Shown here piece after piece: positions 32,702-48,052 of a stretch of DNA of 64,000 nucleotides. How positions within the stretch are numbered: position 1 is the first letter of the stretch; the number at the start of each line of letters is the position of its first letter. Under the pieces are notes generated by a model, which was not told the DNA's origin, searched no databases, and saw nothing but the letters and a program-made list of their open reading frames with translations. Location: the NCBI RefSeq assembly GCF_001887355.1, contig NZ_MPIN01000011.1, positions 1 through 64,000 of the forward strand, written 5' to 3'. The stretch is from Cystobacter ferrugineus. GTDB lineage: Bacteria; Myxococcota; Myxococcia; Myxococcales; Myxococcaceae. The translations under genes and the position numbers were made by a program.

Positions 32702-34474
<1,773 letters not shown>

Positions 34475-34493
34475 CAACGGGGCGGCGAGCCCG

Positions 34494-35267
34494 CTAGTGG
34501 CAGGTGACGGGCTGGGCCATGGCGTTGCGGGCCCGCTCCACGCTCACCAGCTTGTAGTCGGCCAGGTCCGCCAGCAGCACGTCCCGGTTCTGGCGGATCA
34601 GGCTCTCGTTGCGGCACTGCACGGCGTCCGCGTAGAAGCCGTGCGGCGGCAGGGTGAGCGACAGCTCGGCGAGCTGCGACAGCTCGAGCGCGTCCAGCTC
34701 CTTGCCGAAGAGCTTGTACGCCGCGTCATCCACCCCGACGACGCCCCGCTCGAAGTACATGCTGGCCAGGTCATAGGCGATGAGCTGATCCTTCTGGAGG
34801 AAGGTGTGCAGGCGGTGGGCGGCCACGGCCTGCTGCAGCGGCTCCTCGATGCCCAGCGCCATGGCGAGCCGCATGGCCAGCTTGCGCTCGCACGAGCCAT
34901 CCCCCGCGAGGTTGGCGCCCACGGCCACCTTCGCCAGCAGGCGCCAGGCCCACTTCGGTCCATCCTCGCGCGGCGTCTGGAAGAAGGTGGGACAGCCGAG
35001 CTGGGAGATGTAGAGGGCGACCAGATCCTTGGGCAGCCGGGAGAAGTCCGGCCGGACGAACTCCACGGAACGGCCTTGCTCGAAGGTGCCGGCGCGGATG
35101 CTCATGCGCTCGCCCTCGATGGAGTGCCGTAGCTGCTTCTCCAGATCGAACTCGGTCTCCAACTGCGGCAACTTGCTGGCCGCATGGAGGTAGGCGGCGG
35201 GTAGCGCCACGCCCACCATCCCGATGAGGAACAACACCAACCAGAGCAGGGTCTTCACCCCCCGCAC
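34494..35267 (-). CDS. GT51-like protein, probably lacking catalytic residues
   Basis: A 257-residue protein with an N-terminal membrane anchor (TLLWLVLFLIGMVGVALPAAYLHA). Residues about 105-230 resemble the transglycosylase (GT51) domain of penicillin-binding proteins: LASMYFERGVVGVDDAAYKL then FGKELDALELSQLAELSLT match the C-terminal part of that fold. The hallmark Ser-Thr-Ile-Thr-Gln-Gln motif is replaced by the unrelated LAGDGSCERKLAMRLA, and no transpeptidase domain is present. It is therefore likely non-catalytic, perhaps a peptidoglycan-synthesis regulator; this is an inference from missing residues. It is divergent from the oxidoreductase gene by 50 bp. Confidence 0.65.
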   Translation of the reverse strand: MRGVKTLLWLVLFLIGMVGVALPAAYLHAASKLPQLETEFDLEKQLRHSIEGERMSIRAGTFEQGRSVEFVRPDFSRLPKDLVALYISQLGCPTFFQTPREDGPKWAWRLLAKVAVGANLAGDGSCERKLAMRLAMALGIEEPLQQAVAAHRLHTFLQKDQLIAYDLASMYFERGVVGVDDAAYKLFGKELDALELSQLAELSLTLPPHGFYADAVQCRNESLIRQNRDVLLADLADYKLVSVERARNAMAQPVTCH

Positions 35268-35317
35268 GCTATCAAAGGGAGACGGCGGGACGGGTCCAGG
35301 TTAAACCTTCTTCTCAC

Positions 35318-36010
35318 ATGAACGACTGGCACCCCACCACCGTGGCGGCCGTGCTCCCCGCCGCGGAGGATCTCACGGAGCTCGTCCTGGACATCTCGGG
35401 CACCCCCCTGGTGGGGCAGCACCGGATGCCCGGGCAATACGTGCGCCTGTCGTTGCCGGAGGTGGGTGAGGGCATGTTCGCCATCGCCTCGGCGCCCGAG
35501 CCCTCCGGCACCCGGTGGGAGTTCCTCCTCAAGGGGGGCAGTCCCCTGCCCGAGCGGCTCATCACGCTCGAGCCAGGGGCGCGGGTGTACAGCAAGCAGC
35601 CCGAGGGCAAGGGTTTTCCCATGCCCCTGGCACGTGGGCGGGGGTTGCTGCTCTTCGCCGTCGGCTCGGGCATCTCCCCCATCCGCTCCGTCATCGAGAG
35701 CATCCGCCGGGAGCGCGAGGCCTACGGGCGGGTGACGCTCTACTTCGGGGCACGCACGCCGCGCGCGTTCGCCTACGAGGACGAGCTGCGCCACTGGGAG
35801 CAGGCCGGCATCCGCGTGGTGCGCACGGTGAGCCAACCGGGAGACAGTGACTGGCAGGGGCTCACCGGCTACGTCCAGGCGCACCTGAACGAGGAGCCGG
35901 TGGAGGACACCGTGGCCTTCCTCTGTGGCCAGTCGAACATGGTGAAGGGCGTCATCGAGGCGCTGTGCGCCCGGGGGCTGCCGCGCGAGGCCATCCACCT
36001 CAACTACTAG
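35318..36010 (+). CDS. FAD/NAD(P)-binding oxidoreductase (ferredoxin reductase-like)
   Basis: A 230-residue flavoprotein reductase. It has the FAD-binding beta-barrel (GQYVRLSLPEVGEGMFAIAS, the Arg-x-Tyr-Ser equivalent region) and an NAD(P) domain with GSGISPIRSVIES and the C-terminal CGQSNMVKGVIEAL motif. Unlike many relatives it carries no [2Fe-2S] domain, so a separate electron carrier is needed. The donor and acceptor cannot be identified. It meets the WD40 lipoprotein gene tail to tail, and their stop codons overlap in a CTAG. Confidence 0.85.
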   Translation: MNDWHPTTVAAVLPAAEDLTELVLDISGTPLVGQHRMPGQYVRLSLPEVGEGMFAIASAPEPSGTRWEFLLKGGSPLPERLITLEPGARVYSKQPEGKGFPMPLARGRGLLLFAVGSGISPIRSVIESIRREREAYGRVTLYFGARTPRAFAYEDELRHWEQAGIRVVRTVSQPGDSDWQGLTGYVQAHLNEEPVEDTVAFLCGQSNMVKGVIEALCARGLPREAIHLNY

Positions 36011-37611
36011 CGCCGCTGGACGCTGGGAGCGGCGTAGCGCACGGAGAAGAGGGCCGCGGAGGGATCGCTCTGCTGATCGCCCGTCACCTTCTGCGGCGTC
36101 CACGCGGCCACGCCCACGAGTCGCCCGTCCGGGCCGAAGCGCGCCCGGCGCACGGACCAGCCCAGACGCCGCTCGGCCACGGGAGCCTCCTGGCCCTCGC
36201 GCCAGAGCAGCAGCCGCTTGTCCCAGCTTCCACTCACGAGCGCGCGCCCGTCGGGGGAGATGCCCGCGGAGGCCACCACGCCCTCATGGCCCGTCCACTT
36301 GCGCAGCACCTGGCCCGAGCCCGCGTCCACCACCGCCGCGGCGTTCCAGGCGGAGGGCGGCTCGGCGAGCCCCTTCTTCTCCCGCTCGTACACGGCGCGG
36401 GTGCGCTCGGCCTTCGCCGCCGAGAAGGCCACTCCCAGGCGCCGCCCGGCCGCGTCGACGGTGACGTCGTTGACGTGCGCCTCGAAGGAGAACGTGGCGC
36501 GCGGGGCGAACACCAGCACGCGCTCCTCCACGGCGGCCGGAGGCGCGGGGGCCTCGAGGGTGAGGACGGCCTCGGCCGTGGCCTCGTCGAACGCCACGTC
36601 CACGCGCTCGGCGAAGGGCGCGCCCAACACCCCCGCCACGTCCGCGGGGAGGCACGCGTCACACACCGCCACGTCCACGCCCTCGAGCACCAGGCCCTTG
36701 AAGCGCAGGCGCTGGGCGCGCACGAGCCGCGCCAGGGTGGAGCCGAGCGCGGTGGGCAGGGACACCGTCTCCTGGACGAAGGCCGTGTCGATGCCCGCGT
36801 CGCGCGCCGCCGCCGCGCCGAGCACGAGGGCGGGCGTGCGCGCATCCAGCGCGAAGCGCACCGGGGGCCCGCCGTTGACGGTGCCCACCACCACCGCGTG
36901 GCCCGAGCGCCGCTCGAAGCGCACCCGCGCGCCGTCGCGCCGGGGCGCCTCCTCGCGCGTGTCGAGGACGTGGATGCGCTTGTCCCAACCGCCCGAGTAC
37001 AGCGTCCCATCCGGCGCGAAGGCGAGCGCGCTCACCCGGTCCGCATGGGGCCGCGCCTCGAAGGAGAAGCCCAGGTCCGCCGCGCGCAGCACGGTGACGA
37101 GCCCCCGGGCACTGCCCACCGCCAGGTAGCCGCCCGCCGGGTGGAAGGCCACGGCGGTGAGGGGCTCCTCGGTGCGCAGGCTCGCCCGGGGCGCTCCGGT
37201 GGCCGCGTCGAACAGGCGCACCACGCCATCCCACCCCGCGCTCGCCAGGAGCGCGCCGTCGGCGGAGAAGGCCAGCGCCTCCACGTCGAACTCGGAGGGG
37301 TTGAGCGAGGCGTCCACCACGCGCGCTGGCGAGGGCCCCAGGGACCAGAGCCCGAGCCGGTAGTCCTGCCCGGCCAGGTGGGTGAAGGCCACGTGCGCGC
37401 CGTCCGGCGAGAAGTCGAGCGTCCAGACGAAGTCGCGGCGCTCCAACACGGCCGCGTCCTCCAGGCCCACCGCGTCTCCCGCGAGATAGCCGCCCGGCGT
37501 GGACTCGAGCCGGGCGGAGACGTCGGGAGCGAGTACGGGCGCGGCGTGACGGCAGGCCGCGAGCAGCAGGACGCCCGCGGCCCACCAGGCCCGCGGCGTG
37601 CCCCGGCTCAC
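36007..37611 (-). CDS. WD40-like lipoprotein with inserted retropepsin-like domain
   Basis: A 534-residue lipoprotein (lipobox LLLAAC). Residues about 60-230 and 370-515 hold WD40-type blades (LDFSPDGAHVAFTH, LAFSADGALLASAGWDG, ALVSGSWDKRLLLW). Between them, residues about 240-365 look like a clan AA aspartic protease (retropepsin) fold: VNGGPPVRFALDART at Asp256, an RxxGID segment and the C-terminal GVLGAPF. The usual Asp-Thr-Gly is Asp-Ala-Arg here, so catalysis is doubtful. It starts with GTG overlapping the LpoA-like stop by 4 bp, so the two are translationally coupled. Confidence 0.75.
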   Translation of the reverse strand: MSRGTPRAWWAAGVLLLAACRHAAPVLAPDVSARLESTPGGYLAGDAVGLEDAAVLERRDFVWTLDFSPDGAHVAFTHLAGQDYRLGLWSLGPSPARVVDASLNPSEFDVEALAFSADGALLASAGWDGVVRLFDAATGAPRASLRTEEPLTAVAFHPAGGYLAVGSARGLVTVLRAADLGFSFEARPHADRVSALAFAPDGTLYSGGWDKRIHVLDTREEAPRRDGARVRFERRSGHAVVVGTVNGGPPVRFALDARTPALVLGAAAARDAGIDTAFVQETVSLPTALGSTLARLVRAQRLRFKGLVLEGVDVAVCDACLPADVAGVLGAPFAERVDVAFDEATAEAVLTLEAPAPPAAVEERVLVFAPRATFSFEAHVNDVTVDAAGRRLGVAFSAAKAERTRAVYEREKKGLAEPPSAWNAAAVVDAGSGQVLRKWTGHEGVVASAGISPDGRALVSGSWDKRLLLWREGQEAPVAERRLGWSVRRARFGPDGRLVGVAAWTPQKVTGDQQSDPSAALFSVRYAAPSVQRR

Positions 37612-39755
37612 ATGTCCCCCACGGAAGCCCTCTGCTCGGGGGTCACCTCGGTGACACCCTTGTTGCTCACGGACAGGAGGAACAGGGGCTTGCGCGCCTC
37701 GCGCTTGTCGTCGAAGGACGTCTTGCCGGTGGCACCGTCGAAGTCCTTGAGGTTGGCCAGCGCCTCGCGCAATTCCGCGCGGCTCTTCGGCGCCTGCTTG
37801 CTCTCGAGGAGCTGCCGCAGCATGCGCGCCGAGTCATAGCCGTAGGCCTCCAGGAGGCTCGGGTCTCCGTTGTACGCCTGGCGGTAGGCCTTCACGAAGC
37901 GCTGCGTGGCCGGGCGCTGCGAGTCCACGAAGAAGCCATCCACGTACACCGAGCAGTTGACGAACTTGCCCCCGCGCTCGACGAGCTCGGGCAGGCCGCT
38001 GGCCCCCTTGGCGCTGCTCCACGCGTTGCTGCCCAGCAGCATGACCGTCTTGAGGCTCTTCTTGCCCGTCGTCTTGCGGATGCGCTCCAGGTCGCGCGCG
38101 TCGCACGCGTTGGTGATGATGTCCTCCACGGCGAGCGCCGGGGCCACCAGGCTCACCCGCCGCCACTCGTCCGGGATGAAGATGGCCTCGAAGTCGATGA
38201 TGGGCTCCACGCTGCCCTTCATCTTCTCCATGGCCTTGCGCTTGCGGAACGCGTCCTGGCCACTCGTCTGCTCCTGCACCTCGCGCACGCCCTCGACGTA
38301 GTCGCCCCGGTCCTCCAGGTAGTAGCGGCCCACGAGCTTCTTGGCCTCGGAGGTGAAGGTCGTCTGATCATGCGCGTACGTCTCGGCGCCGCGCACCTGG
38401 CCACCGTTGGCCACCACCTGGTCCCAGAAGTCGTTGGCCAGCTCCACGCCGTAGGTCATGTTCGGGTAGAGCACGGCGAAGCTGCGCAACCCCTTCTCCT
38501 TCATGGCGTAGTCGGCGATGGCGCGCGCCTGGGCCGAGTTGGTGAGCATGTTGCGGAAGACGTACGGCCCGATGGCGGTGATGTCCTCCTGGCGCGAGAA
38601 CGTGAGCAGCGGCACCTGGAGCTCCTCGGACAGGAGCGCCGCGCGCCGCGAGTCCTCGGAGGCGATGGGGCCGAGCACCGCGATGGCGCCCTCGTCATAG
38701 GCGAGCTGCTCCATCGCCTGGCCGGTGAGGTTCACATCGCCCTGGGTGTCCTTGACGATGAGCTCCACGTCGCTGCCGGACAGGGCCAGCTTCACGCCCC
38801 GCAGCACCGCCTCGCCCCAGGCCTTGTACTTGCCCGTCATGGGCAGGAGCAACCCCACCGTCCGGGGCTGAACCTCCACGCGCCGCGTGGCGCGCGCGAG
38901 CAGCTCACGGGCCTGGGGCGCGAAGGAATGGGAGGGGGCCTCGGCGAGGAAGCGGTTGAGCGTCTCCTCCAGGCGTGTCCAGTCGCGCAGGTGGTAGTGG
39001 ATGCGCGCCAGCTTGAAGGTGAGCACCGGCCAGGCGGGATGGGAGGCGGGCAGGTCCTCCACCACCCGGGCCACGTCCACGAAGCCCGCGCGGCCCTCCA
39101 CCAGTTGCTGCACCCGGGCCACCGCGGCCTGTTGCTCCTCGGGCGTCTGCGCGCGGCCGGCCAGGTCCACGGCGATCTGCAGCGCCTGGCCATAGAGGCC
39201 CGCCTTCTCCGCGGCCTTGGCGGAGTCCTGCAGCAGCCGCACCTGCTCGGCGCCCTCGGCGCGCTCGGCGAGGCTGGAGAGCATCAGGTAGGCGTCGCGG
39301 TAGGCGCCCACCTCGAGCGCGGCGCGGCCCAGCCGGAGCTTGGCGTCCGCGGCCTCGGGATGGAGCGGGTTCTCGAAGAGCAGCTCGTTGAAGGACTTGC
39401 GCGCGTTGGCGTAGTCCTGGGACTCGTAGAAGAGCACGCCGGCGCGGTAGAGCGCCTCCTGGCCCGCGGTCGTCTCGGGGTAGGCCTTGCGCACCGCGAG
39501 GAAGAGCTCCGCGCCCTTCTTGCCCGGCGTCGACTGGGCCTGCTGGGCCGCCTGCGCGAGCGCCGCGTCCGCCGCGGAGTCCGGGCGCGCCTTCACGGTG
39601 GGCTTGGTCGGGAAGGGGTTTTCCTGGGTGACTTCACCCGGCGAAGGAGGGGTGGAGTCGGTGCCGGAGCTCGTGGCGGAGGGCGTCTTGCAGGCGGCAA
39701 GCAGCATCGTCAGCGCGAGCAACAGGGCGCGGCACGGAGAAAGGCGGGCATCCAT
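37608..39755 (-). CDS. LpoA-like outer-membrane lipoprotein (PBP activator family)
   Basis: A 715-residue lipoprotein with signal peptide (lipobox LLAAC), an N-terminal helical TPR-like region (residues about 60-270), and a periplasmic-binding-protein-like C-terminal domain starting at RTVGLLLPMTGKYKAWGEAVLRG. The architecture matches the LpoA/LppC family, outer-membrane activators of penicillin-binding protein 1A, though related binding-protein lipoproteins with other ligands exist. Starts at 39755 and 39770 are both plausible; 39755 gives the more standard signal peptide. It is coupled to the downstream WD40 lipoprotein gene. Confidence 0.8.
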   Translation of the reverse strand: MDARLSPCRALLLALTMLLAACKTPSATSSGTDSTPPSPGEVTQENPFPTKPTVKARPDSAADAALAQAAQQAQSTPGKKGAELFLAVRKAYPETTAGQEALYRAGVLFYESQDYANARKSFNELLFENPLHPEAADAKLRLGRAALEVGAYRDAYLMLSSLAERAEGAEQVRLLQDSAKAAEKAGLYGQALQIAVDLAGRAQTPEEQQAAVARVQQLVEGRAGFVDVARVVEDLPASHPAWPVLTFKLARIHYHLRDWTRLEETLNRFLAEAPSHSFAPQARELLARATRRVEVQPRTVGLLLPMTGKYKAWGEAVLRGVKLALSGSDVELIVKDTQGDVNLTGQAMEQLAYDEGAIAVLGPIASEDSRRAALLSEELQVPLLTFSRQEDITAIGPYVFRNMLTNSAQARAIADYAMKEKGLRSFAVLYPNMTYGVELANDFWDQVVANGGQVRGAETYAHDQTTFTSEAKKLVGRYYLEDRGDYVEGVREVQEQTSGQDAFRKRKAMEKMKGSVEPIIDFEAIFIPDEWRRVSLVAPALAVEDIITNACDARDLERIRKTTGKKSLKTVMLLGSNAWSSAKGASGLPELVERGGKFVNCSVYVDGFFVDSQRPATQRFVKAYRQAYNGDPSLLEAYGYDSARMLRQLLESKQAPKSRAELREALANLKDFDGATGKTSFDDKREARKPLFLLSVSNKGVTEVTPEQRASVGDM

Positions 39756-40011
39756 GGTAGGGGCGTGCATAGCAGTGGGGCGCTTCTGCGTCGACAGCCG
39801 AGCGGGGGGAAGATTCCCCGAGCAGAAGGACCCGCCGTGCACTCAACGTGCCGCCGCGCGCCCCCTCTGAATCCACCCGGAAGGGAGGAAGGGGTGTGGA
39901 GCGGGGACCACGTGGGTGTGGGCTCCCGGACTCGCCCGCCAGGACGGCGAGGAGGAGGGCGAACCCCAGGGAAGGAGGAGACCCGCGAGGGGCGCGCTCC
40001 GCCCTGGGGGC

Positions 40012-42273
40012 TCAGGACGAGGCGACGGTCGCGGGGCTCGCGTGGGCGGAGAGGGGCCCCGGGGCCCGGACGCCGTTGGACTCGGCGAGCACCCCGGAGA
40101 GGGCCTCCAGAGCGGGAGTCGGCAGCCGTCCAGCCGCACGCAGCCGGACGAGGACCTGGGACGCATCCGACGCCCCGAGTGGGATCGGACCCGCTTCCTC
40201 CAGGAAGGCCACCGCGGTGGCCAGGGCCAGCACGGCCTTGGGGGCGGTCGCCAGGGGAGGCGGCGCGTTCCGGGCGCAGACGTCGATGAGACCCGCCAGC
40301 TCCTCCGAGTCCCGGCCCAGGATGGCGCGCACGGCCTCGCACGAGGGCCGCGCGAAGCGCCCACCGGACTCCTGGAAGGCCGCGAGCGCCAGGGCATACG
40401 CCACCGCCGAGGCGCTCTCGGCCTCCGAGGGAGCCGCGCCCAGCCGGCCCGCCACATCCCGCGCCAGACTGGCGAGCACGGAGCCCCATGCCCCCGCCCC
40501 TCCCAGCATCGCGAGCGCCGCGTCCACCACGCGTGAGTGCCACCGTGCCGCGCGGCTCGAGGACCCGGCCTCCTGTCCGAGCACCCCGGCCATCGAGGGA
40601 CCGCTGGAGGTGGCGCCCTCCTGACGCGGCTCCAAGCCCGCCGGCGGCAACCGCTGGAACGACTCCCCGGCCCGCTCCACGGCCTCGCCCCGGTAGAAGC
40701 GGCCGATGGCGTGGCGCAGGGCGCTCTGGGTGGCGTAGATGCCGCGCACGGCGTGCCCGGTGATGAGCTTCAGCTCGTCCAGACGCGCCGGGTCGCGAGG
40801 CTCGCGCATGGCGCACACCAGCTCTCCGGCCTGCTGCGACACCGGGATCGCCTCCAGCCGCTCGGCCTTCTCCAATGGCAGCAGGGGCAGCAGCAGGCGG
40901 GGCACGGGCATGGTGCGCAGCATCCGATCCGAGATGAAGGGGGTGCCGCTCTGCTCGCTCAGGGCGCGCACCACGTCCTCCTCGGAGAGCAGCCCCTCGG
41001 CGACGAGCAGCTCGCCGATGCGCCCACCGGTGCTCCGCTGCCGCTCCAGCGCGCCCTGGAGCTGCGGCTCCGACACCTTGCCGAACACCAGGAGCATCTC
41101 GCCCAGCTTGCGGCGCGCCGGACGCATCACCCGCGTGGCCATCTCCAGGATGCTCGTGCTGGAGGGAGGGGCCGCGACTGGAACGCGGCCCGGCTCCGTC
41201 TGCGCGCGCGCGGGAGCGGGCGTGCCCGGCCGGGGCCCTCCGAGGAACGGCGGGCGCGAGCGCACCGAGGTGAGCGGCGTCGGGCGCTGCAGCCCCACCT
41301 CCGCGCCCAGGCGGATCTCCTCCCCGAGCGCCTCGGGGGAGCCGCCGTCAACGCCCTCCAGCAGCGAGCGGCGTCCCGGGAAGCAGCGCTGGAAGAGCAC
41401 CGCCACGTCCTGGGTCCCCACGCGCAACCGGTGCTCGAAGAGGAAGTCGCGCAGCGCGTCCGAGAGCTCTCGCGCCTGGTGGAAGCGCGCCGCGGGCTCG
41501 GGCGCCAGCGCCCGGGTGATGATGCTCCAGAGCGCCGCCGGCACGCCGGGCAGCGGCACGAGGCGCTTCACGTCGAACTGGGCGATGGCGCGCAGCGTCT
41601 GGAAGTAGTCCGTCCCCTGGAAGAGCTGCCGACCCGCGAGCAGCTCGTAGAGCAGCAGGCCGGTGAGGAAGAGGTCCGCGCGCTGATCCACCTCGGCGCC
41701 CTTCACCTGCTCGGGGGCGAGGTAGCCCGCCCTGCCCTTCACCACCCCCACCTGGGTGCCACTCTGCGCGTTGATGGCCTTGGCGATGCCGAAGTCGGCG
41801 AGCTTCACCTCGCCGCGGCTGGACACCAGCACGTTGGACGGATTGACGTCGCGGTGGATGATGTTGAGCGGCCGGCCCGCCGCGTCCACGCGGCCATGCG
41901 CGTAGGCGAGCCCCTCGGCGATCTGCTGGACGATGAAGCACACCTCGCGCAGTCCGAGCAGCAGGCCCCGCGCCGCCGCGCGGCGCTGGAGGGCGCGCAG
42001 GTTCTCCCCGTCCACCAACTCCATCACCATGTAGTACTGGCCCTCGAGCGCCCCGAGGTCGAACACCTGCGCCACGTTGGGGTGCTGGAGGCAGACGGTG
42101 AGCCGGGCCTCGCGCAGGAAGAGCTCCACGAACTCCCGATCCCTCGCCATGGACGGCAGGAGGCGCTTGACGGCCACGGGTTTCTCGGACCCCTCCGCGC
42201 CCACCACCTTGGCGAGAAACACTTCCGCCATTCCGCCGGCCGCCAGTTTGCGGATGAGTCGGTACGTGGCCAT
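40012..42273 (-). CDS. Ser/Thr protein kinase fused to MshEN-type domain
   Basis: A 753-residue protein. The kinase domain spans residues 1-280 or so, with LAAGGMAEVFLAK, catalytic loop HRDVNPSN (Asp142), a DFG motif (ADFGIAK) and APEQ. Residues about 385-525 match the MshEN/GspE-N fold: two tandem motifs LGEMLLVFGKVSEPQLQGAL-x-x-Q and IGELLVAEGLLSEEDVVRAL-x-x-Q, the pattern known to bind cyclic di-GMP in secretion ATPases. The C-terminal 200 residues are helical and unassigned. No membrane helix was seen. The ATG at 42273 has a GGAGG just upstream. The kinase may respond to c-di-GMP; this is an inference from the motif. Confidence 0.85.
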   Translation of the reverse strand: MATYRLIRKLAAGGMAEVFLAKVVGAEGSEKPVAVKRLLPSMARDREFVELFLREARLTVCLQHPNVAQVFDLGALEGQYYMVMELVDGENLRALQRRAAARGLLLGLREVCFIVQQIAEGLAYAHGRVDAAGRPLNIIHRDVNPSNVLVSSRGEVKLADFGIAKAINAQSGTQVGVVKGRAGYLAPEQVKGAEVDQRADLFLTGLLLYELLAGRQLFQGTDYFQTLRAIAQFDVKRLVPLPGVPAALWSIITRALAPEPAARFHQARELSDALRDFLFEHRLRVGTQDVAVLFQRCFPGRRSLLEGVDGGSPEALGEEIRLGAEVGLQRPTPLTSVRSRPPFLGGPRPGTPAPARAQTEPGRVPVAAPPSSTSILEMATRVMRPARRKLGEMLLVFGKVSEPQLQGALERQRSTGGRIGELLVAEGLLSEEDVVRALSEQSGTPFISDRMLRTMPVPRLLLPLLPLEKAERLEAIPVSQQAGELVCAMREPRDPARLDELKLITGHAVRGIYATQSALRHAIGRFYRGEAVERAGESFQRLPPAGLEPRQEGATSSGPSMAGVLGQEAGSSSRAARWHSRVVDAALAMLGGAGAWGSVLASLARDVAGRLGAAPSEAESASAVAYALALAAFQESGGRFARPSCEAVRAILGRDSEELAGLIDVCARNAPPPLATAPKAVLALATAVAFLEEAGPIPLGASDASQVLVRLRAAGRLPTPALEALSGVLAESNGVRAPGPLSAHASPATVASS

Positions 42274-42546
42274 GCCCCCTCCCCTTCCCCGGGTTGAAGG
42301 CTCCGTATGCACACGCGCCGAGGCGTTGGTGAGTGTCCTTCTCCCGGGGACGCCATGAACGTCCAGACCCGGGCACTGCAACCTGGGGAGGCACGGCCCT
42401 TTCGTTCACCGATGGCCAGCGCGACACGACTCAGGTCCAGTGGGGTGAGCCGCGCCCAATGCGGACACCCCAACACATGCTCCCGCACCGCCCCCTCTCC
42501 CCGAATCCCGTCCGTTTGAAGGATTCGAGGAGGGAGGAAAAGGCGG

Positions 42547-43671
42547 CTAGCCGAACAGCTCGCGCACCTTCTCGAAGAAGTTCTTCGACTGCGGGTGCGC
42601 TTCCTCGCCGCTGGCCTCGGCGAACTTCTCGAGCAGCTCGCGCTGCTTCTGGGTGAGCCCGGTGGGCGTCTCCACGACGACGCGCACGTGCTGGTCGCCG
42701 CGCTGGCCGCTGTGCAGGTGCGGAACGCCCTTGCCCTTGAGGCGGAACACCTTGCCCGACTGGGTGCCCTCGGGGAGCGTCATCTTCACCTTGCCGTCGA
42801 GCGTGGGCACGTCGATCTTCGCGCCCAGCGCCGCCTGGGTGAAGGAGATGGGCACCTCGCAGAAGACGTCGTAGTCCTCGCGCTGGAAGAGCGGGTGCTC
42901 GCGCACGATGACCGTCACGTACAGGTCGCCCGCGGGGCCGCCCCGGTCTCCCGGCTCGCCCATGCCCGTGAGCCGCACCCGCGTGCCGTTGTCCACGCCC
43001 GGCGGGATGTTGACCTCGATGACCTCGTCACTGGGCACCTTGCCCGAGCCCTTGCACTTGGTGCACGGATCCGGCACCACCGCGCCCGTCCCGCCGCACT
43101 CGGTGCACGGCCGCGACACGGCGAAGAAGCCCTGGGTGAAGCGCACCTCTCCGGCGCCGCCGCACGTGCCGCACGTCTTGGGCGCCGAGGCGCTCTTGCT
43201 GCCCGTGCCCGAGCACGTGTCGCACTTCTTCGGCCGCGGAATCGGCACCTTCGGACGGCAGCCGAACGCCGCCTCCTCGAAGGAAATCTCCAGGTTGAAG
43301 CGCAGATCCGCGCCCCGGTTGCTCGCCCGGCGGCCCCCGCGTCCACCAAAGATGTCTCCGAAGATCTCCCCGAAGATGTCGTTGATGTTGACGCCCTGGA
43401 ACCCCCCGAACGGGTCTCCCCCGGCCGCCCCGCCCACCCCCGCATGACCGAAACGGTCGTAGCGGTTGCGGCGATCCGGATCACTCAGGACCTCGTAGGC
43501 CTCCGAGGCTTCCTTGAACTTCTCCTCGGCCTCCGCGTTCCCGGGGTTGCGGTCCGGGTGATACTGCAAGGCCACCTTGCGAAAGGCGCTCTTGAGTTCC
43601 TGCGCCGAGACGGTCTTCTGGACCCCCAGCACCTCGTAATAGTCCCGCTTCTGGCCCGAAACCGCTGGCAT
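42547..43671 (-). CDS. dnaJ: Chaperone DnaJ
   Basis: A 374-residue full-length DnaJ (Hsp40), which feeds unfolded protein to DnaK and stimulates its ATPase. The J-domain (residues about 9-73) has YHPDRN, followed by the Gly/Phe region, four CxxCxGxG-type zinc repeats between residues 149 and 211 ([32 protein letters not shown]) and the C-terminal substrate-binding domains. dnaK and grpE are not in the window. It is transcribed away from the promoter at 43727-43754. Confidence 0.97.
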
Positions 43672-43726
43672 TGCCTCAAACCCCTGGATTTATTGGACTT
43701 TATCCGCGCGTGGGAAATTCCGAGTC

Positions 43727-43754
43727 ACTATAACGCAGCGTTGGGGTCCAGCAA
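43727..43754 (-). promoter_or_regulatory. Sigma70-like promoter of dnaJ
   Basis: On the minus strand, TTGCTG (plus 43749-43754) and TATAGT (plus 43727-43732) are separated by 16 bp, 56 bp before the dnaJ start. The -10 box is good and the -35 box is only half-matched. No heat-shock (sigma32-type or CIRCE) signal was recognised. Confidence 0.4.
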
Positions 43755-43815
43755 TCCGCACCCGCCCCGGCAAGGGAGCGGGCGCATCTCGGGGAGGACG
43801 CCTGAGGACGAGCCC

Positions 43816-44262
43816 TCAGACGGTCCAGATGCGGTTGGCCGTCAGTTCCATGCGCGCCAGGCGGCGCTTGAGGATGGGGTCGATGACGCCCCGGCTGACC
43901 GACCACTTGGGAACCACGAAGTGGAGCTCCGCGTTGTAGAGCTTGGCGGCGCTCGACAGGAGGCTCCAGCGGTTCTCGGCGGCGGGCTCATCCACCATGG
44001 CCGGCGTGACGATCTCCAGGATGATGGGTGTCCGGGCCGAGTCGGACTGGCGGCAGGTGAAGTCCGGCCGGTGGTCCTCGATGGTACCCGAGAGGACCGG
44101 AGGTGGCAGGAATCCAGGCAGGCGGGCCTTGATGTCCGTGCAGCCGATGGTCCTGAAGTACTCCGCCATCAGCCACAGCAGTCGACGGCGCTCCTCGTCC
44201 TCGACCACCGGCTCACAGCCCGGGCTGCTCAGCAGTTCTTTCTCAGTGTTGTTCGTGTCCAT
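43816..44262 (-). CDS. Unassigned protein, possible PD-(D/E)XK-like fold
   Basis: A 148-residue protein beginning MDTNNTEKELLSS. The middle contains DHRPDFTCRQSDSARTPIIL then EIVTPAMVDEP, where a Pro-Asp is followed by a Glu in the spacing of a PD-(D/E)XK nuclease core; the Lys expected two residues later is replaced by Val. A second segment (LYNAELHFVVPKWS) resembles the same fold. The match is weak and could be chance. ATG 44262 was preferred over the upstream Met because upstream residues are Arg-rich leader DNA. It lies between dnaJ and the ABC exporter. Confidence 0.6.
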   Translation of the reverse strand: MDTNNTEKELLSSPGCEPVVEDEERRRLLWLMAEYFRTIGCTDIKARLPGFLPPPVLSGTIEDHRPDFTCRQSDSARTPIILEIVTPAMVDEPAAENRWSLLSSAAKLYNAELHFVVPKWSVSRGVIDPILKRRLARMELTANRIWTV

Positions 44263-44401
44263 GGCTAGCCGAAAGCTGTCCGTCCCGGACCGCTGAGGCA
44301 ATGAACGCACCTACATGGTGAGCTGGGACGGTCGTGGGGCAGGCGGCCAGGCGAGTCCCTTTGCCTGGGCCCCGGCGCGATGACACAGTGCGCACCTCGC
44401 C

Positions 44402-46165
44402 GTGGCGCCTCGTCCTTCCCCTCACGTCTATCGTCGGCTCCTGGGTTATGTGCGGCCCCATCGCCTGCTGCTCGCGGCGGGACTGGGCGCGTCGCTCGTG
44501 GCCGCCGCGGCGACCTCCACCTATGCGTGGCTCGTGGGGCCCCTGCTGCGCGCCGTGCTCACCGGCGGTCCCGTGGAGCTCGCGGGCGTGAAGCTGCCCG
44601 GAGAGCGCCTCCTCGGCGTGCTGCCCCTGATGGTGGTGGGCGTGGCGGTGCTCAAGGCGGGCGCGAACTACCTCCAGGGTGGGTGGATGCAGCGGCTGGG
44701 ACAGCGGGTGATGGCGGACCTGCGGGCGTCCCTCTACGCGCGCCTGCTCGCCTGGCCCCCCGCGTTCTTCGAGCGCCAGCACTCGGGAGAGCTCCTCACG
44801 CGCTTCACCGCGGACGTGCCCCTGGTGGAGTTCTCCGTCACCCAGGCGCTCTCCTCCTACGTGCGCGACGGGTTGCAGATCCTCGCGCTGCTCGTCACCT
44901 GCCTGCTCATCGACGCGAAGCTCTTCCTGCTCACCTTCGTGGTGATGCCGCTCACGGTGCTGCCGGTGCGGGCCTTCACGCGCTCGCTCAAGAAGGTGGC
45001 CCAGCGCTCGCAGACGAGCCTGGGCGCGCTCACCGCGTTGACGGCGGAGCAGTTGCAGACACTGCCGGTGGTGCGGGCCTATGGCGCCGGGCCCCGGGCG
45101 CTCGCGCGCTTCGAGGCCGAGGCGGCGCGCTACCTCGGGGAGATGCGCCGCTCGCTCCTGCTGCGCGGCGCGTACAGCCCCACCGTGGAGCTGATGGGCA
45201 TGGTGGGCGTGGCGGTGGCGGTGGCGTGGGGCGCGCGCGCCATCTCCGTGGACCCCTCGCTCTCCGGGCGGCTCCTGTCCTTCATCACCGCCACGCTCCT
45301 GCTCTACCAGCCGGTGAAGTCGCTCAGCGGCACGCTCTCCCAGGTGGTGACGGGTCTGGTGGGCGCCGAGCGCCTCTTCGCGCTCGCGGACCAGCCCGTG
45401 CCGCCGGATGAGGGGGACGACGCCCCGCCCCTCACCCAGGCCCTGACGCTCTCGGGGCTGCGCGCCACCTACCCCGACGGCCGCGAGGCCCTGCGCGGCG
45501 TGGACCTCACGGTGCCCGCGGGGGCCCGGGTGGCGCTGGTGGGCGCGTCCGGCGCGGGCAAGACGACGCTCTTCTCCGTGCTGCTGGGCTTTCTGCCCCC
45601 CAGCGGCGGCACGGTGAGCTGGGATGGCGTGCCCCTGTCACGGCTCAAGCCCTCGCGCGTGCGCGAGCGCCTGGCGTGGGTGCCCCAGGAGCCGGTGCTC
45701 TTCTCCGGCAGCGTGCGGCACAACGTGCTGCTCGGACGGCCGGACGCCTCGGACGCGGACCTCTGGGAGGCCTTGCGGCTCGCGCACGCCGAGGACTTCG
45801 TGCGCGCCCTGCCCGGGGGACTCGACGAGCCGGTGGGTGAGCGCGGCGCGCGCCTGTCGGGTGGACAACGCCAGCGCCTCGCCCTGGCGCGGGCCTTCCT
45901 GCGCCAGCCCTCCGTCCTCCTGCTGGACGAGCCCACCAGTGCCCTGGATGCCCAGAGCGAGGCGGCGGTGGGCGCGGGCCTCGCCACCCTCATGAAGGGG
46001 CGCACCGTGCTCGTCATCGCCCATCGGCTGTCCACCGTGCGGGACGCGGACCTCATCGTCGTCCTCGACGCCGGGCGCGTGGTGGAGGCGGGCACCCATG
46101 CCGAGCTGTCCACCCGGGGGGGCCGTTATGCCCAGCTCCTCGGTGAAGGGGCCGTCGCCGCCTAG
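44402..46165 (+). CDS. ABC exporter, fused permease and ATPase (MsbA-like)
   Basis: A 587-residue half-size ABC exporter. Residues about 10-320 form the six-helix membrane domain (for example LASLYARLLAWPP and FFERQHSGELLTRFTADV), and about 345-585 form the nucleotide-binding domain with Walker A GASGAGKTT (Lys387), the signature LSGGQRQRLALARA, Walker B LLLDEP (Asp509-Glu510) and the switch His in VIAHRLST. It is expected to work as a homodimer in lipid, drug or peptide export; substrate unknown. The start is GTG at 44402. Confidence 0.92.
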   Translation: MAPRPSPHVYRRLLGYVRPHRLLLAAGLGASLVAAAATSTYAWLVGPLLRAVLTGGPVELAGVKLPGERLLGVLPLMVVGVAVLKAGANYLQGGWMQRLGQRVMADLRASLYARLLAWPPAFFERQHSGELLTRFTADVPLVEFSVTQALSSYVRDGLQILALLVTCLLIDAKLFLLTFVVMPLTVLPVRAFTRSLKKVAQRSQTSLGALTALTAEQLQTLPVVRAYGAGPRALARFEAEAARYLGEMRRSLLLRGAYSPTVELMGMVGVAVAVAWGARAISVDPSLSGRLLSFITATLLLYQPVKSLSGTLSQVVTGLVGAERLFALADQPVPPDEGDDAPPLTQALTLSGLRATYPDGREALRGVDLTVPAGARVALVGASGAGKTTLFSVLLGFLPPSGGTVSWDGVPLSRLKPSRVRERLAWVPQEPVLFSGSVRHNVLLGRPDASDADLWEALRLAHAEDFVRALPGGLDEPVGERGARLSGGQRQRLALARAFLRQPSVLLLDEPTSALDAQSEAAVGAGLATLMKGRTVLVIAHRLSTVRDADLIVVLDAGRVVEAGTHAELSTRGGRYAQLLGEGAVAA

Positions 46166-46256
46166 CGAGCAGCCCGGAAGCCAGGCGGCCGCCTGCCCCC
46201 TCGCCCTCCGCACGGAGCGTTCACTGGCCGTCGGCTCTCCCATACTCGGGGGCAAA

Positions 46257-46286
46257 TTCATGATTTCATGGGATTCGGCTTATACT
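46257..46286 (+). promoter_or_regulatory. Possible promoter of the 46296 membrane-protein gene
   Basis: TATACT at 46281-46286 is a good -10 box, with TTCATG at 46257-46262 as a weak -35 at 18-bp spacing. The gene starts 9 bp after the -10 box, so if this is the promoter the 5' leader would be nearly absent and the mRNA leaderless. Confidence 0.3.
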
Positions 46287-46295
46287 CCTTAAACC

Positions 46296-47252
46296 ATGCT
46301 GACTCCCGTCAGATTCACGCCGCTCTCCGGACTGTTGCTCGCCGCGCTCCCCCTCATGGCGATGGGGAGCTTCGGGCTCGCGCTCCCCCCCCTGTTGGGT
46401 GGAGGCACCGAGGTGTGGCGGGTGGCGGGCGCGCCAGGGCCCTACAGCGTCTTGATGTGGGGGGGCATCGGGGGGGTGACCCTCGTGCTCTCGACGCTGT
46501 TGTGCAGGGGGGCCGCGGGCAGACATGCGCCGCTGGTGCTGCTGGTGGGGCTGGCCACCCTGCCCTGGCTGCTGGGCATCGCCGGCACGCAGGAGGCGAT
46601 GCGCCGGGTGCTGGCGGCGCTCCCGGAAGTGGGGGGACGGGACGCGCTGGCCATGCTGGCCGCGGGCACCGGCGAGGCGATGGTGACGCGCCGGATGGGG
46701 GCCTGGACGAGCGCGGCGCTGCTGGGCGCCGTCGCGGTGGGGCTCGTGCTGGTGCACAAGCACCGGCGCGTGGGCGAGGACTCCGAGCGGATGCTGGGCG
46801 CCGCGCTGGCGCTGGTGCTGGGCTTCAGCGCCCTGCTCGCGGCGCTCGAGGCCCACCTGCTCGTGGAGCTGCTCACCCCGCGGGCCACGCCCGACTCCGG
46901 GGACCGCGCCGCGCTGCTCGCCACGGACACCGCGCGGCTCGGCTCGCTGCAGGAGCTGCGCTGGGCGCTCCTGGGAGCTCTGTCAGTGCTCGGACTGGCG
47001 CTCGTCGGCTGGCGGTTCTTCCCCCGCCCGAAGGCCGTGGCCCAGTGGGCGGGAAGCCTCACGCTCATGGCGATCGCCGCGGCGGTGCTCGCGCTGGACA
47101 CGCGGCCCCTGCAACTCGCGGCCTGGGGCGCGTGGAGGGCGGATGCCTCGCGCATGTCACCGGCCTCGCGGCTGCCCCAGGTGCTGGCCGGCGCGCTGGG
47201 CTCGGTGCCCGCCTCGCACTGCGCGACCCCCGCCGTGCGGACCGTGCCCTGA
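46296..47252 (+). CDS. Unassigned membrane protein, about seven helices
   Basis: A 318-residue protein with about seven hydrophobic segments (for example LSGLLLAALPLMAMGSFGLA, VLMWGGIGGVTLVLSTLLC, MLGAALALVLGFSALLAALE). No recognised domain. Charged loops are short. It may be a sensor or transporter; nothing in the sequence identifies it. It is convergent with the downstream minus-strand gene. Confidence 0.7.
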   Translation: MLTPVRFTPLSGLLLAALPLMAMGSFGLALPPLLGGGTEVWRVAGAPGPYSVLMWGGIGGVTLVLSTLLCRGAAGRHAPLVLLVGLATLPWLLGIAGTQEAMRRVLAALPEVGGRDALAMLAAGTGEAMVTRRMGAWTSAALLGAVAVGLVLVHKHRRVGEDSERMLGAALALVLGFSALLAALEAHLLVELLTPRATPDSGDRAALLATDTARLGSLQELRWALLGALSVLGLALVGWRFFPRPKAVAQWAGSLTLMAIAAAVLALDTRPLQLAAWGAWRADASRMSPASRLPQVLAGALGSVPASHCATPAVRTVP

Positions 47253-47274
47253 GCGAAGCGCCCGTCCGAGCCCC

Positions 47275-47898
47275 TCAGAGGAGCCAGAACAACAGGGCCA
47301 CGCCCACCACGAGCCCCACCGCGAGCACGAGGAGCATGGTGAGCCCCTCGCGGCCCTGCCGGCGCTGCATCTCCGGGGTGATGGCGCTCGGGGGAATGAG
47401 GGGGGCGGGCACGGAGGCCACGTCCGCGGGAGCGCGAGCGGGAGCCGCCATGGGGGGCGGGGACATGGGAGCCGGCATCGCGTTGCCGGCGAGCGCGAGG
47501 CTCTGGCGCGCGAGCGCGAGCACGCGTTGGATGTGGAGGATGTAACGGTCCTCGCCCTGGTAGTCCTCGAGCGCGAGCGCGGCGCGCAGGAGCCGCTCGG
47601 GAACGGGCACCAGGTCGGGGTGGACGGCACTGGCCTCGGCGCGAGCGGCGTCCACCTGCTCCACGCGTCCGGTGCGCAGACCCACGCCGCTCGTCCAGAC
47701 ACAGTGCTCACCCAGCAGCGTCAGCTCCTGGCGTTGCACCCTTCCCTCGGAGTCCACGAAGGAGAGCAGCTCGGCGCCCTGGGCGGACAGGTGCCAGACC
47801 GAGCGTTGTCCGTCGTCGCCGGGAGGCCCCTCCACGGGGCGGGCCAGGGACAGCGCCTGGATGGCGAGCTTCACTTTCTGGGACGACGGTTCACTCAT
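47275..47898 (-). CDS. Unassigned tail-anchored protein
   Basis: A 207-residue protein with a soluble N-terminal domain (about 1-130), a Pro/Ala/Met-rich linker (NAMPAPMSPPPMAAPARAP) and a single C-terminal membrane helix (LTMLLVLAVGLVVGVALLFWLL) ending at the last residue. Its orientation should leave the domain in the cytoplasm. No motif was recognised. Confidence 0.7.
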   Translation of the reverse strand: MSEPSSQKVKLAIQALSLARPVEGPPGDDGQRSVWHLSAQGAELLSFVDSEGRVQRQELTLLGEHCVWTSGVGLRTGRVEQVDAARAEASAVHPDLVPVPERLLRAALALEDYQGEDRYILHIQRVLALARQSLALAGNAMPAPMSPPPMAAPARAPADVASVPAPLIPPSAITPEMQRRQGREGLTMLLVLAVGLVVGVALLFWLL

Positions 47899-48052
47899 GA
47901 GAGGCGGGGGAGCCTAGGGACGGAAGGGCGAAAACGGAAGGCGCTCGTGGCGGGAGAGGGGCCGCCCAGGACAGAACGGGTCGTTCAGTCCCCCGGCCCC
48001 CTGGTGGGTTCTGGGAAGGCAAGAGGCCCCGTCAGGGGCTACGGTGAGAGAT

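Follow-up and report, generated by a model that had tools for sequence, protein, structure and literature searches.

Whether a bacterial second messenger could act directly on Ser/Thr phosphorylation is the question raised by one gene in a 64,000-nucleotide stretch of Cystobacter ferrugineus DNA (the window, from contig NZ_MPIN01000011.1), the product of which carries both a Ser/Thr kinase domain and an MshEN domain, a type of domain associated with cyclic di-GMP (c-di-GMP) binding. Motility and fruiting-body development in Myxococcus xanthus are controlled by c-di-GMP. Myxobacterial genomes encode well over a hundred Ser/Thr kinases each, and the window protein suggests a probable signal for one such kinase. 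If c-di-GMP does control this kinase, a single protein would link the second messenger to Ser/Thr phosphorylation. The window protein is a directly testable case for such control. An earlier note on this DNA placed the gene at 40012-42273; these coordinates are correct, and the strand, which that note left unstated, is minus. The features considered are as follows.

40012..42273, minus strand: whole gene, 753 aa, Ser/Thr kinase, MshEN, and helical C-terminal domain; orthologues align from residue 1
41431..42273, minus strand: protein kinase domain, residues 1-281 (Pfam PF00069, E 3.8e-37)
41122..41430, minus strand: Pro-rich, poorly conserved linker, residues 282-384 (alignment)
41038..41109, minus strand: MshEN motif I, residues 389-412, KLGEMLLVFGKVSEPQLQGALERQ (NF053729; alignment to 5HTL)
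40951..41022, minus strand: MshEN motif II, residues 418-441, RIGELLVAEGLLSEEDVVRALSEQ (NF053729; alignment to 5HTL)
40669..40950, minus strand: MshEN C-terminal subdomain, residues 442-535 (Pfam PF05157 at 452-531; PilB/MshE structures align to ~530)
40069..40572, minus strand: helical C-terminal domain of unassigned family, residues 568-735 (alignment of relatives)
42547-43671: dnaJ, flanking the kinase-MshEN gene
37608-39842: LppC/periplasmic-binding lipoprotein, flanking the kinase-MshEN gene and followed by genes for a WD40 protein and an NAD-binding oxidoreductase

The kinase and MshEN domains lie on one chain, as the earlier note had proposed. We detected Pfam matches to Pkinase (PF00069; residues 4-263, E 3.8e-37) and MshEN (PF05157; E 1.2e-15, 57.6 bits against a cut-off of 23.1), and the NCBIfam model NF053729, “cyclic di-GMP-binding domain, MshE-related,” matched residues 389-441 (61.5 bits against a cut-off of 38; E 4.9e-17). 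As sequence matches, those to the kinase and to the MshEN motifs are far beyond chance. The complete MshEN domain occupies residues 385-535, essentially the range of 385-525 given previously. Because the mean hydropathy of any 19-residue stretch is no higher than ~1.6, the protein is predicted to be soluble. A plus-strand frame over 40012-42273 is interrupted by a stop, and the long plus-strand frames in this interval are probably shadow frames of the kind that GC-rich genes commonly show.

We also observed the tandem 24-residue motifs that the earlier note had described, and both are present in the alignment. In VcMshE, one c-di-GMP molecule is gripped by two 24-residue motifs with 5 residues between them (PMC5013675), and the window protein has the same 24+5+24 layout, with motifs at residues 389-412 and 418-441 and the spacer RSTGG. 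We compared the protein with two copies of the motif RLGxx(L/V/I)(L/V/I)xxG(L/V/I)(L/V/I)xxxxLxxxLxxQ separated by a 5-residue spacer; it conforms to the relaxed form of PMC5013675 except at the eleventh position of motif I, which is Lys rather than a hydrophobic residue. A comparison with PDB structures matched the protein to MshE in complex with c-di-GMP (5HTL; E 3.4e-14). The ligand-contact residues expected of an MshEN c-di-GMP receptor domain were found: for the contacts reported in PMC5013675 (R9, L10, G11, L25, L29, Q32, R38, L39, G40, L54, L58, and Q61), the window protein reads K L G L L Q / R I G V L Q and MshE reads R L G L L Q / R L G L L Q. Positions 10, 11, 25, 29, 32, 38, 40, 58, and 61 are thus the same as in VcMshE, and the three substitutions, R to K at position 9, L to I at position 39, and L to V at position 54, are all conservative. 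Lys at position 9 also occurs in Thermus PilF-GSPIIB, the structures of which represent the c-di-GMP-bound state. With contacts kept or conservatively substituted, the sequence supports the earlier proposal that the MshEN domain senses c-di-GMP, and we consider it quite probable that this domain binds the ligand.

The earlier note had raised whether other myxobacteria possess the same fusion. Searching 145 genomes of the order with a profile of the MshEN part at a threshold of at least 160 bits, we found the family at 39 places in 35 genomes. Immediately below this tier was an inverted fusion at 144.5 bits, followed mostly by frames resembling pilus or secretion ATPases at ~131 bits or less. 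Thirty of the 39 loci were opened; a kinase lay upstream in the same frame in 29, and the remaining locus was truncated at a contig end. A kinase was also present at a further locus, in G110. Genomes sampled outside the order gave no match of family strength, and a scan of genome contigs returned two distant loci only. The genome of the window species has 16 MshEN matches and 156 kinase matches, and by comparison of positions the two domains coincide only at the window gene among the kinase matches listed.

Across 30 family members, Gly11, Leu29, Gln32, Gly40, and Gln61 are invariant. The mean entropy of contact positions was 0.54 bits versus 1.36 bits for the rest of the bundle (30 sequences; permutation p 0.00035), although part of this conservation reflects Leu and Gly residues that support the fold, which this comparison does not distinguish from ligand contacts; the diagnostic positions are only Gln32, Gln61, and those with basic residues. 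At position 9, 16 of the 30 sequences have R or K, 10 have Q, and 4 have P; binding strength may therefore vary across the family. A paralogue in G016 (L042:8636-10531:+) retains the kinase and the MshEN C-terminal subdomain, but motif I and a portion of motif II are gone, and it should therefore not bind c-di-GMP in the manner of MshE.

The kinase domain has most of the residues of a Hanks-type kinase, including the nucleotide-binding Lys36, the alpha-C Glu55, HRDVNPSN at 140-147 with the catalytic Asp142 and Asn147, DFG at 160-162, and APE at 186-188; conservation across the family extends to Lys36, Glu55, Asp142, Asn147, the Asp of DFG, and APE. The closest solved kinases are PknA and PknB. 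A Lys in the catalytic loop (HRDxK) is typical of Ser/Thr kinases. This position is Asn in the window protein and in all orthologues whose kinase domain is complete, whereas all 30 of the best-scoring kinases of the same genome have Lys. We therefore class the domain as Hanks-type by its fold and its other residues, and the description of the kinase as active-looking in the earlier note holds for those residues and needs a caveat for the catalytic loop. The nearest kinases without MshEN, found in other genomes, form a large myxobacterial group that mostly reads HRD[VI]SPQN, with Ser in place of Lys. Since these relatives also lack the Lys, its loss is a stable feature of the group and not a lesion reflecting decay of this gene. 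On these residues, the kinase is probably active.

The helical C-terminal domain beyond MshEN is conserved across 28 family members. None of the known families tested matched it, and it may represent a new type of domain. We considered a degenerate HD-GYP domain and rejected it, as hhalign gave a probability of 1.3% against 34 HD-GYP domains and the HD and GYP residues are absent. In most relatives that are probably Myxococcaceae, the protein is longer (900 to 1,100 residues): after the kinase, linker, and MshEN, the helical domain sits between two receiver-like modules. The second of these modules gave a Response_reg match in five of the relatives scanned, three of them over the cut-off. In the sequences examined, our reading of the alignment is that its phospho-acceptor position is not Asp, and the receiver-like modules of the relatives are accordingly read from the alignment as putative pseudo-receivers that would be dead to phosphorylation. 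Compared with each other, the two modules gave a homology probability of 5.9%.

Taken together, we lean slightly toward a model in which the window protein is a soluble Hanks-type Ser/Thr kinase switched by c-di-GMP through its C-terminal MshEN receptor. When c-di-GMP rises, one molecule would lodge between the paired 24-residue motifs in the four-helix bundle of MshEN. The bundle, made rigid, might then alter the packing of the MshEN and C-terminal helical regions on the kinase, or might alter kinase dimerization, and the packing change would be relayed through the flexible Pro-rich linker to switch substrate phosphorylation up or down. The coupling of ligand to kinase is what we infer here. 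A single-sequence AlphaFold model was too poor for domain contacts (mean pLDDT 37.7 for the full protein and 43.9 for residues 383-753); its moderately confident MshEN bundle had a Foldseek probability of 1.00 to c-di-GMP-bound MshEN structures, with every E-value > 0.1. More tentatively, and with somewhat less than even confidence, we suggest a wider model of a conserved myxobacterial HRDxN kinase family gated directly by c-di-GMP through MshEN, the full form of which would carry two phosphorylation-dead receiver modules that some lineages have discarded.

Alternatively, the MshEN domain might serve for docking to other proteins, with c-di-GMP binding lost or no longer required, as in XpsE/GspE, and might bring the kinase to a type IV pilus, a type II secretion system, or another partner. 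XpsE of Xcc17 provides a precedent in having the MshEN fold with binding lost (PMC5013675). The paralogue in G016 without motif I indicates that some of the family do without the pocket, and motif II is weakened in G024 and G027. We regard docking as unlikely, however, for the window protein: comparison of contact positions revealed none of the changes known to abolish binding in XpsE (G11V, L29R, R38G, G40L, L54H, L58C, and Q61V; PMC5013675), the two contact Gln residues do not vary among the 30 family members, and no pilus or secretion genes are adjacent to the gene. Doubt can also be directed at the kinase, which might be a pseudokinase or a very slow enzyme serving as an ATP-binding scaffold with a conformation set by c-di-GMP. 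The Asn in the HRDVNPSN loop of every complete orthologue, set against the Lys of the 30 same-genome kinases, is consistent with this idea, but the catalytic Asp, metal-binding Asn, DFG Asp, VAVK lysine, and alpha-C Glu are all intact, and the Ser of the closest relatives without MshEN marks the loss of Lys as a group feature. Tyrosine kinases also lack the catalytic-loop Lys, which further counts against a pseudokinase, and we find this reading rather improbable.

A different concern is that the functional device was the ancestral form with five parts and that constraint in the window species is relaxed, with the gene heading toward loss of function. The window species (G000) and its congeners G002 and G003 have neither receiver-like module, and congener G001 has both. 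With the reservation that dS in this GC-rich genome rests on few sites and the values are rough, whole-gene dN/dS within the window subclade was ~0.63 versus 0.08-0.41 for neighboring genes, the linker had the highest or nearly the highest value of any region in most comparisons, and the kinase domain had the lowest in most comparisons, with 0.24 to G001 and 0.34-0.41 within the subclade. Fast evolution together with the loss of two modules means that function may be relaxing in this subclade. We nevertheless judge this very unlikely, as the frame is intact in all three species, the kinase domain retains the dN/dS noted above, and the binding contacts are intact. Furthermore, G011, which belongs to another genus, also lacks both receiver-like modules, so that shortening is compatible with persistence of the protein.

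A c-di-GMP-switched kinase of this type would join a small set of related systems. The earlier note had regarded the coupling of MshEN with a kinase as notable if shown, but Wang et al. in 2016 had already listed Ser/Thr protein kinases among MshEN partner domains and counted 22 MshEN genes in M. xanthus (PMC5013675). What is new is the detail: the Asn of HRDVNPSN, the receiver-like modules of most relatives that are predicted to be phosphorylation-dead, and a separate MshEN-first fusion. The literature searched, which was thin on subscription papers, contained no functional study of an MshEN-Ser/Thr kinase protein. VcMshE and PilB/PilF (PMC5013675) resemble the window protein in their tandem 24-residue motifs, 5-residue spacer, both subdomains, and retained contacts, but they have a secretion or pilus ATPase C-terminal of MshEN, whereas the window protein has a kinase N-terminal of it, with Lys replacing the first Arg of MshE motif I. 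The nearest studied analogue in function is Pkn1 of M. xanthus, likewise a myxobacterial Ser/Thr kinase with a domain of c-di-GMP-receptor type; unlike in the window protein, this domain is PilZ rather than MshEN and is predicted not to bind c-di-GMP, and Pkn1 matters for development (PMC8316039, PMC8844925). SgmT of M. xanthus is also a kinase of the same order with a c-di-GMP-receptor domain, but it is a histidine kinase and its receptor is an inactive GGDEF domain (PMC3509222).

We also observed inverted fusions, with MshEN N-terminal and the kinase C-terminal, in three genomes opened (L098:1553-3934:+, L104:1646-3850:+, and L103:567-3242:-). These combine the same two domain families in one chain but differ from the window protein in placing MshEN first and in having a canonical HRDxKPxN loop, with an FHA domain in L103. 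Given this separate arrangement, fusion of the two domains probably occurred on more than one occasion within the order.

The gene order around the kinase-MshEN gene is shared across the genus and by parts of the family, and this conservation offers no clue to the substrate of the kinase. No Rfam element, such as a c-di-GMP riboswitch, was found in 34000-48000, and near the gene we detected neither a promoter nor a terminator consensus. Among the neighbors, the WD40 protein (36007-37611, minus strand) has an unusual arrangement in which an aspartyl-protease-like PF13650 domain (residues 242-333, E 2.6e-9) lies between two blocks of WD40 repeats. A 164-aa protein (43816-44310, minus strand) without a Pfam match is 96% identical in congeners, with a rough dN/dS of ~0.09, and adjoins dnaJ in the relatives that share the gene order. 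Elsewhere in the same genome, on contig C3, L066:808-2763:+ encodes MshEN, an HD-GYP-type HD_5 domain, and DUF4388 in one protein; MXAN_2807 is a similar MshEN and HD-GYP protein (PMC8844925).
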